From Methanosarcina barkeri str. Wiesmoor (GTDB lineage Archaea > Halobacteriota > Methanosarcinia > Methanosarcinales > Methanosarcinaceae), in assembly GCF_000969985.1 (NCBI RefSeq), contig NZ_CP009526.1:496001-560000 (forward strand): a DNA stretch of 64,000 nt, read 5' to 3'. Shown here in pieces: positions 8,382-17,656 of this stretch. The first letter of the stretch is position 1; every line of letters starts with the position of its first letter. The notes under the pieces are model-generated. The model had not been told where the DNA came from, did not search any database, and saw only the letters and a program-made list of their open reading frames with translations. Both the position numbers and the translations under genes were made by a program.

Positions 8382-8466
8382 AGGACGCACGAACTTAACA
8401 ATATCTATTTAGAATGTGATTCCAGCTTATGTATAAAACTCCTGCGCTCATGGGCGAGTTTCTAAA

Positions 8467-8545
8467 ATAAATCAATTTTAGAATAAATCAATTTTAGAAT
8501 AAATCAATTTTAGAATAAATCAATTTTAGAATAAAGCAATTTTCA
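8467..8545. repeat. 16-bp tandem repeat, 5 units
   Basis: The unit ATAAATCAATTTTAGA is repeated five times, the last unit diverging (ATAAAGC). It sits between the divergent permease and HicB-like genes, so it lies in both promoter regions. Confidence 0.9.
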
Positions 8546-8597: not shown

Positions 8598-8789
8598 ATG
8601 ACAATCTTTTTTCCTTTTTCTGCAACCATCCGTTATGAGGAAAGCTTTTTTATCTCAATCTGTCCTGAAGCTGATATAATTTGCAAGGGAATCACTATTG
8701 AAGAAGCTATTGAAAATCTAAAAAAAGAAGTGGAAAAATTCCTTGGTGAAGAACTGTCCCAGGGATTTTCGAAAATCATATTTTACTGA
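8598..8789 (+). CDS. HicB-like antitoxin-fold protein (orphan)
   Basis: 63 residues from ATG 8598; a TTG at 8580 is possible but less likely. The sequence FSATIRYEESFFISICPEAD, then ITIEEAIENLKKEVEKFL, matches the partial RNase H fold of HicB/UPF0150 proteins. HicB antitoxins neutralise HicA mRNA-cleaving toxins, but no HicA frame is seen next to it, so this is an orphan. It lacks the C-terminal DNA-binding part of longer HicBs. A 130-bp MITE begins two bases after its TGA, and the A of the stop codon is part of the MITE's target duplication. Confidence 0.65.
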   Translation: MTIFFPFSATIRYEESFFISICPEADIICKGITIEEAIENLKKEVEKFLGEELSQGFSKIIFY

Positions 8790-8791
8790 AT

Positions 8792-8921
8792 GAGCCTATC
8801 CCATAACTCAAAACTGCTTCTCTAAATCTCGAATAGGGAGTGATCAATGGTTTTCAGATCACGGAAAATAGTTCTGAAACTTTTATCTATTTGAGGATAA
8901 AATTGGTTTTGGGATAGGCTC
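8792..8921. mobile_element. 130-bp MITE, copy 1
   Basis: Terminal inverted repeats GAGCCTATCCCA and TGGGATAGGCTC bound exactly 130 bp, flanked by the 3-bp direct repeat AAT (8789-8791 and 8922-8924). There is no coding capacity. Copies with the same length and ends are at 35964-36093 and 60472-60601. The ends and 3-bp target duplication fit an IS5-like transposase acting in trans; no such transposase is in the window. Confidence 0.85.
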
Positions 8922-8924
8922 AAT

Positions 8925-9137
8925 TTAAAATTTATAGTTTTCTTCCGGAAATATAGATTCTTCTGATTTGAAGTCAGGGCAGTTATCAATGATTTTCATC
9001 AAAAGCCAGAACTCTATAACAGAATAGATAGGATCTCTGGCAAAGAGGCTCCTGGTTTTACCGACATCGTGAAACACGCGGTAAAAGGATTTTAACAGAA
9101 TTAGCAGAAATAAGAGCAGGAAAAATAAGAGAAACAT
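8925..9137 (-). CDS. Possible small membrane-anchored protein (70 aa), doubtful
   Basis: A 70-codon frame starts with a hydrophobic leucine/phenylalanine stretch (residues 1-15) and continues with a mixed soluble part (HDVGKTRSLFARDP, EESIFPEENYKF). Its stop codon abuts the MITE, and without the MITE it would end almost against the HicB-like gene. There is no clear ribosome site and no family is recognised. It follows the structured RNA copy on the same strand, so it could also be part of that transcript's untranslated tail. Confidence 0.25.
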   Translation of the reverse strand: MFLLFFLLLFLLILLKSFYRVFHDVGKTRSLFARDPIYSVIEFWLLMKIIDNCPDFKSEESIFPEENYKF

Positions 9138-9161
9138 ACATTAAAAGGAGGGTAAGGAAAA

Positions 9162-9264
9162 GCCCGGAAATTTATGTTCCTTTTACCGTAGCCCCCGTTA
9201 CGGTCGATCTGAAAATACGCTCCCCCAAGCATATTATTCAGAATAGGATCAAAAGCTTCCGGGC
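9162..9264 (-). ncRNA. Putative structured RNA, copy A
   Basis: Read on the minus strand, an 8-bp outer stem (TTGCCCGGAA region pairing with TTTCCGGGC, plus-strand arms 9257-9264 and 9162-9169) encloses a conserved GATCCTATTCTGAA segment, a hairpin AUAUGCU-UGGGGG-AGCGUAU that needs a U-G wobble available only on the minus strand, and a third hairpin ACCGUA...UACGGU. Copy B about 660 bp away has the same order of elements with compensating changes in the outer stem. A shared AT block at 9341-9362 lies about 77 bases upstream and could be the promoter. No Rfam class is recognised. Confidence 0.45.
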
Positions 9265-9340
9265 AATTCTTTACTTACTATTCACACCCGTTACTCACTC
9301 TTCCTGTTATCTCTAGTGTACAACATAGAATAATTCCTAT

Positions 9341-9362
9341 AATTATTTTAAATTAATTATAT
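9341..9362 (-). promoter_or_regulatory. Shared AT block, putative promoter of structured RNA copy A
   Basis: AATTATTTTAAATTAATTAT plus AT is identical to positions 10001-10022 and lies at an equivalent distance (about 70-77 bases) upstream of each structured element on the minus strand. Such conservation in otherwise diverged flanks suggests a TATA/BRE region. Confidence 0.35.
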
Positions 9363-9639
9363 CAAAAATTAGTTCCAAACGAAAAATGCTTTCGCATAAA
9401 AAGTTTTAAAATCGGAGTATGATTTCATGTTATGCGAGTTTTTAGCGTTCATGTCAAAAGAGTTTTTAACGTTAACTATGGGGGGTTAATAGATTTTGAA
9501 ACGGGAAGACAGTAGTAATAGGTTTGAGATTGTGAGTTAATTTACAGTTTACTATCTGACGAAGCTCTCAATAAAAATCTGCAAAGATATTTTTCAACTT
9601 TTCAAAGAAGCGGTAAGATAATTGATAATAAGGCCAGAA

Positions 9640-9696
9640 GTCAAAAAATATGTCAAAAAATATGTCAAAAAATATGTCAAAAAATATGTCAAAAAA
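9640..9696. repeat. 12-bp tandem repeat, about 5 units
   Basis: The unit GTCAAAAAATAT is repeated from 9640, the last copy incomplete. It lies between the two structured RNA copies and directly adjoins a second tandem repeat. Confidence 0.9.
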
Positions 9697-9769
9697 GACC
9701 ATAGGACAATAAGGCCATAGGACAAAAAGACCATAGGACAAAAAGACCATAGGACAAAAAGACCATAGG
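9697..9769. repeat. 16-bp tandem repeat, 5 units
   Basis: The unit GACCATAGGACAAAAA is repeated with a small variation in the first copies (ACAATAAG). It directly follows the 12-bp repeat. Confidence 0.9.
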
Positions 9770-9816
9770 CTAGAGAGAATAAAAGATTTAGTAAACCGGA
9801 AAAACGTAAGAAAATT

Positions 9817-9933
9817 CCTGGAGGCACTGTACCCGTTTACTGTATCCCCCAATAAGTCTCTCCCCCAATAAGTCTCCCTGATTACTATGCTCCCGTGAGC
9901 ATAATTTTCAAAGAAGGATCAGTAATCTCCAGG
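9817..9933 (-). ncRNA. Putative structured RNA, copy B
   Basis: On the minus strand the outer stem is CCTGGAG pairing with CTCCAGG (plus-strand arms 9927-9933 and 9817-9823). Inside are GATTACT pairing with AGTAATC, the conserved GATCCTTCTTTGAA segment, and the hairpin UAUGCU-CACGGG-AGCAUA with the same 6-base loop size as copy A. A doubled GACTTATTGGGGGA follows. The outer stem differs from copy A on both sides, keeping pairing. The same AT block lies 68 bases upstream (10001-10022). Confidence 0.45.
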
Positions 9934-10000
9934 CTATTCTCTTATCTATCGAGGTGGCTACTCATCTAACTTCCTAACTCCATAATATACTATGAGCATA

Positions 10001-10022
10001 AATTATTTTAAATTAATTATAT
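10001..10022 (-). promoter_or_regulatory. Shared AT block, putative promoter of structured RNA copy B
   Basis: This 22-base block is identical to that at 9341-9362 and sits in the equivalent place upstream of copy B on the minus strand. Confidence 0.35.
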
Positions 10023-10516
10023 GAAAAATTGTTTTTAATCAAAATATATTTTGACGTAAAAGATTTTAGTTCCAGGATATATTCAAATATCGGACAATAT
10101 TTTTAGGTATTCTCTTTTTTGGCTAATACTATTTTTTTATAGATTCCCAGATTATATTCAGTGACTATTCAGTGACGGTTGAATTAACTCTTAGCAGATA
10201 AAAAGAGTTGTGTGCAGATCAAGGGTATAAGATAAATTATTAACTTTGAAATAAACAGGATCGACAGATGAATCATAGGGTAAAATAAGGAATAGGCAGA
10301 AAAGTACTATATTTAAAAAATCCTAAAACAACATATAACAATACAACTATCTTTTAAAAAATAAAATGTTAATCCTGAAACAAAATCGTTTAAACGACTT
10401 TTAAATCAATTTAAACAAATTTTATTTCAGTTTTAACGATGCCTCCCAGTTTCAGAGCAATGTCTGAGTACTTAGGAGACCAAAAGATAGCTTACTAAAA
10501 CACTGTCATTCTTTAA

Positions 10517-15770: not shown

Positions 15771-17608
15771 AGCGTATCACAAGTTCTGTAAAATTTTAAT
15801 TGCCTTTTAATAAACCTCTAAAAGCGCCACCAATTCCTCCATACAGAACTCCTGTAATAAGTGAGAAAAAAATTGTTGAAATTATATCGATACTTATGGA
15901 ACCTAATATAGAGAAGTTTAAAGAAAACTTAAAGGAAGCCAAAGCCATTATCAGGGTATAGGGTAAAGCAACATATGCACCAGCTCGAATTCCTGATACT
16001 AATTTATTGGTACCCTTTGCTGAAATATACCCTCCTATTAACAGTGAAATGAGAGGCACTAATAATAACAGCATTGCATTTGCAGATTCGGGATAGTTCA
16101 TCAATGAAAAGATATTTACCGGTTCTAATAATCCCATTGAACGGATATTTATACATTGGATATTTATATATATACCATGGGATAGGTAATAAATCATTCC
16201 TGTTAATTGTAAAGTATAATTATTAAGTATCCCTTTTGTAAGAGAACCTCCAAGAGATCCTAAGGCACCGCCTTTACTAAATGACGATACGATCATATTT
16301 TCACCTATTGTGAAAGTAATGTAGCTTAAGATTATTCCTACCATAAATGCTGTAAGAGCACCACCGATAGTAAAAATTAACTTATTTTCCAAGGCCTGCT
16401 TGTAATCACTTGCCTGCTTGTCACTTGCCTGCTTGTAATCACTTGCCTGCTTGTCACTTGCCTGCTTGTAATCACTTTCTCCCCGTCTATCTTTCTTTGT
16501 TTTTTTCTTTTTTTTGTTTGGATTGTAAAAATTTTGCTCAAGGTATATGTCACCGGTGGTGTCTTTGATTTTGATGGAGGGATTATTTTCTAATGCAAGC
16601 TGGTCAATGTTTTCAACGTTGACATTTATTACAATAGGTTCAATTTCCTTTATTAAACCTGGATTTTTCATTAGCAACTTCAGGATTTCCTGTTGAAGTT
16701 CTTCCTTTGCTTTTGGATCTTTGGAGTTTATGAGAACTTTTGTAAGTGCTTTTTCGAGGGATGAACTCATTTTAGGGCTTATTTTCTCCAGCAGAGCCTG
16801 TGCTCCTTTCCCACTTTCAGAACCGAGTTTTTCAAATGCCTTTTCATAAATCAACTCCACAAGAACTTCTTTGCCTTTGTCAACTGCAGGTTTTCCTGCA
16901 ATGCACAGGGCAGACAAGGCAGGAACGAGAATATTTGTTGCTTGCTGAGCGAGCTGGGCGAGAGCGGCTGGATCCATAAAACACCTGGCAGCGTATCACA
17001 AGTTCTGTAAAATTTTAATTGCCTTTTAATAAACCTCTAAAAGCGCCACCAATTCCTCCATACAGAACTCCTGTAATAAGTGAGAAAAAAATTGTTGAAA
17101 TTATGTCAGGACCTACATCGATACTCGCATAATCGAATGGAGAGAAGTTTAATGAAAATATGGAAGAAACTAGAACCATTATTAAGGTATAAGGTAAGGT
17201 AACATATGCACCAGCTCGAATTCCTGATACTAATTCATTTGTATCCTTTGCTGAAATATACCCTCCTATTAACAGTGAAATGAGAGGCACTAATAATAAC
17301 AGCGTTGCATTTGCAGATTCGGGATAGTTCATCAATGAAAAGATATTTACCGATTCTGAGTATCCCATTGAACTGATATTTATAGATATACCATGGGATA
17401 GGTAATAAATCATTCCTATTAATTGTAAACTATAATTATTAAGTATCCCTTTTGCAAAAGAACCCCCAAGAGATCCTAAGGCACCGCCTTTACTAAATGA
17501 CGATACGATCATATTTTCACCTATTGTGAAAGTAATGTAGCTTAAGATTATTCCTACCATAAATGCTGTAAGAGCACCACCGATAGTAAAAATTAACTTA
17601 TTTCTTAT
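15771..17608. repeat. About 620-bp direct duplication inside the composite transposon
   Basis: Positions 15771-16395 and 16987-17608 align almost throughout, beginning with GGCAGCGTATCACAAGTTCT and covering the membrane halves of both cargo genes. Differences are mostly substitutions plus small indels. The first gene thus appears to be an extended version of the second, or the second a truncated duplicate. Confidence 0.85.
15796..16977 (-). CDS. Transposon-borne membrane protein with soluble N-terminal domain
   Basis: 393 residues, family not recognised. Residues 1-150 are soluble and helical (MDPAALAQLAQQATNILVPA, then a lysine/glutamate-rich region and INVNVENIDQLAL). A lysine-rich linker (NPNKKKKKTKK) and a tandem repeat of SDYKQA/SDKQA (about residues 175-200) lead to a membrane half with about five hydrophobic helices. 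That half is nearly identical to the 213-aa protein encoded next to it. The N-terminal half resembles the soluble adaptor-like regions of large Methanosarcina multidomain proteins in composition only; its role is unknown. Confidence 0.7.
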   Translation of the reverse strand: MDPAALAQLAQQATNILVPALSALCIAGKPAVDKGKEVLVELIYEKAFEKLGSESGKGAQALLEKISPKMSSSLEKALTKVLINSKDPKAKEELQQEILKLLMKNPGLIKEIEPIVINVNVENIDQLALENNPSIKIKDTTGDIYLEQNFYNPNKKKKKTKKDRRGESDYKQASDKQASDYKQASDKQASDYKQALENKLIFTIGGALTAFMVGIILSYITFTIGENMIVSSFSKGGALGSLGGSLTKGILNNYTLQLTGMIYYLSHGIYINIQCINIRSMGLLEPVNIFSLMNYPESANAMLLLLVPLISLLIGGYISAKGTNKLVSGIRAGAYVALPYTLIMALASFKFSLNFSILGSISIDIISTIFFSLITGVLYGGIGGAFRGLLKGN

Positions 17609-17656
17609 TTGGTCTTCATTTGTGGTAAATCTTTCAAATTTTATTTCAGATTCCAT
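17015..17656 (-). CDS. Transposon-borne membrane protein, short paralogue
   Basis: 213 residues. After 20 soluble residues (MESEIKFERFTTNEDQIRN) the protein is the same five-helix membrane domain as in the longer neighbour (KLIFTIGGALTAFMVGIIL, LLVPLISLLIGGYISAK, GGIGGAFRGLLKGN). It lies 37 bases upstream of the longer gene on the same strand, so the two are probably co-transcribed. The glycine-rich helices suggest a pore or an oligomerising membrane domain, but no function can be assigned. Confidence 0.7.
   Translation of the reverse strand: MESEIKFERFTTNEDQIRNKLIFTIGGALTAFMVGIILSYITFTIGENMIVSSFSKGGALGSLGGSFAKGILNNYSLQLIGMIYYLSHGISINISSMGYSESVNIFSLMNYPESANATLLLLVPLISLLIGGYISAKDTNELVSGIRAGAYVTLPYTLIMVLVSSIFSLNFSPFDYASIDVGPDIISTIFFSLITGVLYGGIGGAFRGLLKGN

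Follow-up and report, generated by a model that had tools for sequence, protein, structure and literature searches.

In bacteria, the CsrB/RsmX/Y/Z RNAs exist in multiple copies, carry repeated G-rich hairpin loops and are linked to sensor kinases, and the hairpins bound by ANTAR proteins are linked to HisKA_2-type kinases. Among the archaea, Methanosarcina species serve as genetic models for small RNAs and for methanogenesis. The intergenic sRNA162 and sRNA171 of M. mazei are reported as two copies beside ArsR-family regulators, possess conserved promoters and fold into three stem-loops with a 39-nt linker (PMC3510493). In sRNA154, likewise of M. mazei, two hairpin loops are functional; this RNA acts in trans (PMC3177094, PMC5867862), and its gene, described as a single one, carries an NrpR operator, GGTA-N6-TACC (PMC3177094). 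Here, we compare with these systems a structured RNA of Methanosarcina which almost certainly represents a multi-copy small-RNA gene family, as judged from sequence comparison, and of which two copies lie side by side in the region analysed.

Results

The window, that is, the whole stretch of DNA that we analysed, comprises 64,000 nt (G000:C2:496001-560000) of a 4.9-Mb Methanosarcina genome. An initial annotation had proposed that its minus strand carries two tandem copies, A and B, of an unrecognised structured RNA with covarying stems. The elements it described are indeed present: the outer stems CCCGGAA/TTCCGGG (copy A) and CCTGGAG/CTCCAGG (copy B), the segment GATCCT..T.TGAA in both copies, and the hairpins TATGCT-TGGGGG-AGCGTA in copy A and TATGCT-CACGGG-AGCATA in copy B. 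Only the extent of the outer stem had been understated; it is longer because AAGAA pairs with UUCUU beyond it, and the structured cores span positions 9153..9272 (copy A) and 9807..9942 (copy B). A covariance model, R1, built from 32 of the homologues found with copy A, scores this copy at 122.9 bits (E 5.5e-26 for the whole genome) on the minus strand versus 31.6 on the plus strand, so that the strand had been correctly assigned. Copy B reaches 88.6 bits (E 1.5e-17), and an improved model, R2, gives 106.5 bits for copy A, obtained with the structure alignment, and 73.9 bits for copy B. Against dinucleotide shuffles, the folds of copies A and B have z values of -3.4 and -3.0, respectively. As the initial annotation had supposed, there is no matching class in Rfam 15, neither for the RNA in the window, at the gathering threshold or at E values up to 5, nor for three other family loci at E values up to 1.

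Homologues of copy A were found by DNA search in all 31 Methanosarcina genomes. The covariance-model search of these genomes, which had been suggested together with the remark that a lack of homologues with conserved pairing would speak against an RNA, returned such homologues in 31/31, with 1 to 24 copies per genome. The two copies noticed at the outset are both real, but their number was far too low: the present genome alone holds eight clear R1 copies (E 5.5e-26 to 2.2e-8) and a weak one. A second genus (g5), sister to Methanosarcina, was positive with R1 in 4/4 genomes, at 4-6 copies each, and none of the 203 remaining genomes of the same class gave a match. Searching 18 genomes of other genera with R2 and laxer filters produced a single match, at E 0.05, which we consider due to chance because the G-rich loops and the AT block described below are missing from it. 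The viral contigs searched gave chance matches to the hairpin or to the AT pattern and none to the RNA, and the plasmids searched contained no family match. Copies stand singly or in tandem arrays, with a maximum of six within 2.6 kb (G036), and the loci are syntenic across species. Those of G001, for example, include C1:730034-730155(+), 2465291-2465410(+), 2577991-2578111(-) and a group of three at 5369062-5370046(-).

The consensus derived from 55 diverse sequences has 44 base pairs, 35 of which show changes on both sides, in agreement with the covarying stems that had been proposed. In the alignment, 90.3% of the cells are paired, a value reached in 0/500 shuffles, with 41-55% for slid controls, and the consensus energy is -60.7 versus -15.7 +/- 3.5 for column-shuffled alignments (z -12.7), it being understood that, for these structure statistics, A1 and A4 include mutually related sequences. 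Furthermore, RNAalifold applied to a sequence-only alignment of 67 copies left out of R1 recovered one and the same architecture, in which two hairpins with G-rich loops (GGGGG in each) are borne by a long closing stem. Together, the 99 homologous matches with E below 1e-7 among the collected loci, a consensus fold lying 12.7 standard deviations below shuffles and the recovery of the structure in held-out copies exclude chance.

The closing stem P1 pairs AAGAA..GCCUGGAGG with CCUCCGGGC..UUCUU. Within it, P2 (CUG.AUCC/GGAUACAG; the GAUCC/GGAAC region in copy A) leads to a junction with P3 and P4. P3 consists of GCUCCGAA/UUCGGAGC followed by AUAUGCU/AGCAUAU, with the loop UGGGGG, and P4 is the hairpin ACUGUAUU-GGGG-GAUACAGU. 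Covariation is seen in these internal hairpins, too. The loops stay constant while the stems vary: in the held-out copies, GGG is found in loop 3 of 63/67 and in loop 4 of 62/67, typically as GGGGGA. In copy A the GGGGG tracts occupy 9222..9226 (loop 3) and 9192..9196 (loop 4) of the minus strand. In the R2 alignment, loop 4 of copy B is 17 nt longer and contains a second GGGGG tract, which arises from a duplicated segment (9846..9866 on the minus strand, with tracts at 9862-9866 and 9846-9850). The G tracts may be dispensable in some lineages, since the loops of the G017 copies and of the sole copy of G024 (L183) have degenerated while their stems persist. This decay may date the loss of a loop-binding partner in these genomes.

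Upstream of the two copies, the initial annotation had noted an identical 22-bp AT block (9341-9362 and 10001-10022). The identity is real, but the block as such is 30 bp long, at 9341..9370 for copy A (AATTTTTGATATAATTAATTTAAAATAATT) and 10001..10030 for copy B (AATTTTTCATATAATTAATTTAAAATAATT), both on the minus strand. The pattern AATTTTTnnnnTAATTAATTTAAAATAATT is found upstream of 93/97 copies, at a distance of 49-80 nt in all but two cases, which stand at 95 and 130 nt, and the 17-bp core TAATTAATTTAAAATAA has five exact matches in this genome, all five standing before family copies and none away from them. Because of this exclusive association, the AT block is, on the evidence of its distribution, a promoter element dedicated to the family. 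Its inner part forms a near-palindrome centred on TTTAAA, and the element could be a strong TATA/BRE promoter or the operator of a specific factor.

Transcription of copy A is predicted to start near 9320-9325, from the TATA-like TTTAAAATA, and that of copy B near 9981. The predicted 5' leaders, drawn from the sequence and the leader alignment, would cover 9273..9325 and 9943..9982 of the minus strand, respectively. On the 3' side of copy B, T-rich tandem repeats made of 16-bp TATGGTCTTTTTGTCC and 12-bp ACATATTTTTTG units (9640..9778, minus strand) are likely its termination zone. More generally, the DNA downstream of the copies is T-rich (47% T vs 32%), which is compatible with archaeal U-tract termination. 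Several other copies have different T-rich tandem units directly 3'. We did not retain tandem repeats as a family trait, as at a low threshold they are only slightly more frequent downstream (54/96) than upstream (41/93) of the copies.

Other features of the window include four 16-bp tandem repeats of TTTTAGAATAAATCAA downstream of copies A and B (8460-8543) and an inverted repeat resembling a transposon remnant (8771-8942), whose GAGCCTATCCCA arms are 37 nt long and 73% complementary. A small HicB/UPF0150-like ORF (8598-8786) is convergent with copy A; its orthologues in other species are likewise convergent, 15-750 nt 3' of the RNA array, and, being confined to one ancestral locus, the gene was rejected as a general neighbour of the family. 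Further away, two adjacent minus-strand ORFs (15796-17656), the first of which has no Pfam match, share a near-identical membrane domain and appear recently duplicated.

Another kind of neighbour recurs. Among the copies listed from four genomes, 10 of the 21 loci lie less than 3 kb from a HisKA_2 domain, compared with 0.78 for random placement, the control being uniform random positions, and 0/20,000 draws reached ten. Sensor proteins are numerous among the neighbours: they comprise MASE3-PAS-HisKA_2, MEDS-PAS-HisKA_2 and multi-PAS kinases, together with a CheB/CheR-PAS protein and a DUF2111-PAS-GAF protein, and in a recurring layout the RNA stands between two MASE3 kinases (L085, L115, L130). 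An unusual ribosome-binding site, GGGGG(G), precedes the MASE3 kinase located 3' of the RNA (L082, L085, L090, L093, L115, L124, L130), and the orthologues of this kinase mostly lack an ATG, with an apparent CUG or UUG start. We set this site aside as independent support for the role of the G-rich loops: it belongs to a single orthologous group, and is weak evidence for that reason.

Discussion

The family resembles the CsrB/RsmX/Y/Z RNAs in its several copies per genome, in the repetition of identical G-rich hairpin loops and in its suspected link to kinases. Indeed, the repeated G-rich motif in hairpin loops that characterizes CsrB/RsmY-type RNAs is found in 62-63/67 held-out copies. However, the family has a fixed three-way junction with two loops only, GGGGG in place of ANGGA, and no Rfam match, and in these archaea a CsrA-type partner is only hypothetical; to our knowledge, no CsrA/RsmA protein is to be expected in this genome. 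The tandem hairpins bound by ANTAR proteins offer a second likeness, with two short-loop hairpins and a tie to HisKA_2-type kinases. Their loop sequence differs from that of the family, though, and the ANTAR domain (PF03861) is found in 0/4 Methanosarcina genomes, which led us to reject an ANTAR target RNA.

That the family is a described M. mazei RNA (sRNA162/171, sRNA154 or sRNA41) under another name seems very improbable. It shares with sRNA162 and sRNA171 an intergenic location, a similar size (191 nt for sRNA162), paralogues and conserved promoters (PMC3510493). Compared by description, however, sRNA162 is distinguished by its adjoining ArsR-family regulator, by three stem-loops and by a single-stranded 39-nt linker between SL2 and SL3. 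R1 finds no match in the clusters of FilR1-type regulators, and among the copies listed in two genomes (G008 and G009) none lies less than 1 kb from such a regulator. As for sRNA154, which resembles the family in its two hairpin loops, it is described as a lone gene under an NrpR operator, whereas the family has many copies and the operator is found within 200 nt upstream of 0/99 of them. By the features compared, the family thus probably differs from sRNA154 and sRNA162/171. The FilR1-type regulators themselves form tandem clusters of near-identical genes (L163, L164, G009:C1:2843500-2868000; L165, G008:C1:3645000-3662000), in which 85-95% identical DNA reaches into the flanking intergenic regions; these may carry other small RNAs. 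In the open papers searched, we found no earlier description of the family. Presumably, individual copies are among the unnamed intergenic sRNAs of M. mazei transcriptomes. The family is new to Rfam, and its kind, the multi-copy small regulatory RNA, is already known.

Are these RNAs genes in their own right? The initial annotation had left the choice between paired small RNAs and a duplicated cis-acting leader. As a general account, the gene alternative is to be preferred from the genomic arrangement, and a tandem-duplicated riboswitch or attenuator acting on the downstream gene seems improbable. It is true that, counting ORFs of at least 100 aa, the RNA and the gene that follows share a strand at 27/41 loci. 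These include the MASE3 kinases, which follow at 209-321 nt, and at such kinase loci a leader role is possible. Nevertheless, the next ORF is convergent at 14/41 loci, which disfavors the leader account in general, the downstream genes are unrelated to each other and each copy has a promoter element of its own. Moreover, the ancestral array locus, to which the window copies correspond in other species, has the order array, HicB-like gene, then URO-D or permease. Here, a small gene of opposite strand separates the array from the following gene on its strand, and the URO-D gene has a TATA-like sequence of its own. A still less probable account, which we regard as highly improbable, is that of a MITE-like mobile repeat whose terminal inverted repeats mimic a stem. 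Dispersed copies in numbers varying from 1 to 24 per genome would suit it, but in 93/97 copies the AT element is placed beyond the inverted repeats, with little variation in its distance from them, positions are syntenic between species and the covariation includes the internal hairpins.

If the RNAs are a small-RNA gene family, how would they act? They could be base-pairing regulators using the G loops or the variable leader as seeds for C-rich or complementary mRNA sites, which is the mode of known trans-acting Methanosarcina sRNAs, exemplified in M. mazei by sRNA154 and sRNA162 (PMC3510493, PMC5867862). Leaders do differ among paralogues, as target-specific seeds should. Nevertheless, the two loops have the same sequence in nearly all copies, which would be odd for distinct targets, and ORF starts show no enrichment of CCCCC (9/446). 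We therefore hold this mode to be rather doubtful. GGGGG is found around 26/446 ORF starts, with overall frequencies of the two motifs about equal, and this excess favors mimicry of G-rich sites over antisense pairing. Since the G-rich loops resemble G-rich ribosome-binding sites, titration or mimicry appears to be the likeliest mode, although, given a small-RNA gene family, we would put it at slightly less than an even chance.

In the titration model, each RNA would be transcribed from the AT element, would extend over about 170-190 nt into the U-rich zone past the closing stem, and would act in trans. Two hairpins would be displayed by the closing stem and the junction, and their G-rich loops, UUGGGGGAG and AUUGGGGGAU, would form the working surface. 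The partner of these loops would be a protein, or the 30S anti-Shine-Dalgarno end, with an affinity for G-rich sites; the RNAs would titrate this partner or signal by way of it, and their dose would be set by the copy number, the tandem arrays and the common promoter control. For the reading as a whole, namely separate trans-acting small RNAs under common control, working by G-loop titration or signalling and linked to kinases, the balance is about even.

The location of about half of the loci next to orphan sensor kinases suggests that the RNAs are part of these kinases' output. For orphan HisKA_2 kinases, DNA-binding response regulators are mostly missing. More specifically, orphan kinases of the MASE3, MEDS and PAS types would act through the RNA family, whose G loops would sequester an RNA-binding protein or the ribosome, a proposal that we put forward as a speculative one, unlikely as it stands.

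In conclusion, an RNA family that extends through the whole genus, with as many as 24 copies in one genome, has been missing from Rfam and from the open papers searched. As it is strongly enriched beside kinases and is preceded by a promoter element of its own, the question of its part in kinase signalling can be tested in genetically tractable strains. As a candidate, the family could fill the place of the output that is missing in archaeal signalling and, if the kinase proposal is true, archaea would possess their own equivalent of the bacterial Gac/Rsm circuit, assembled from unrelated components.
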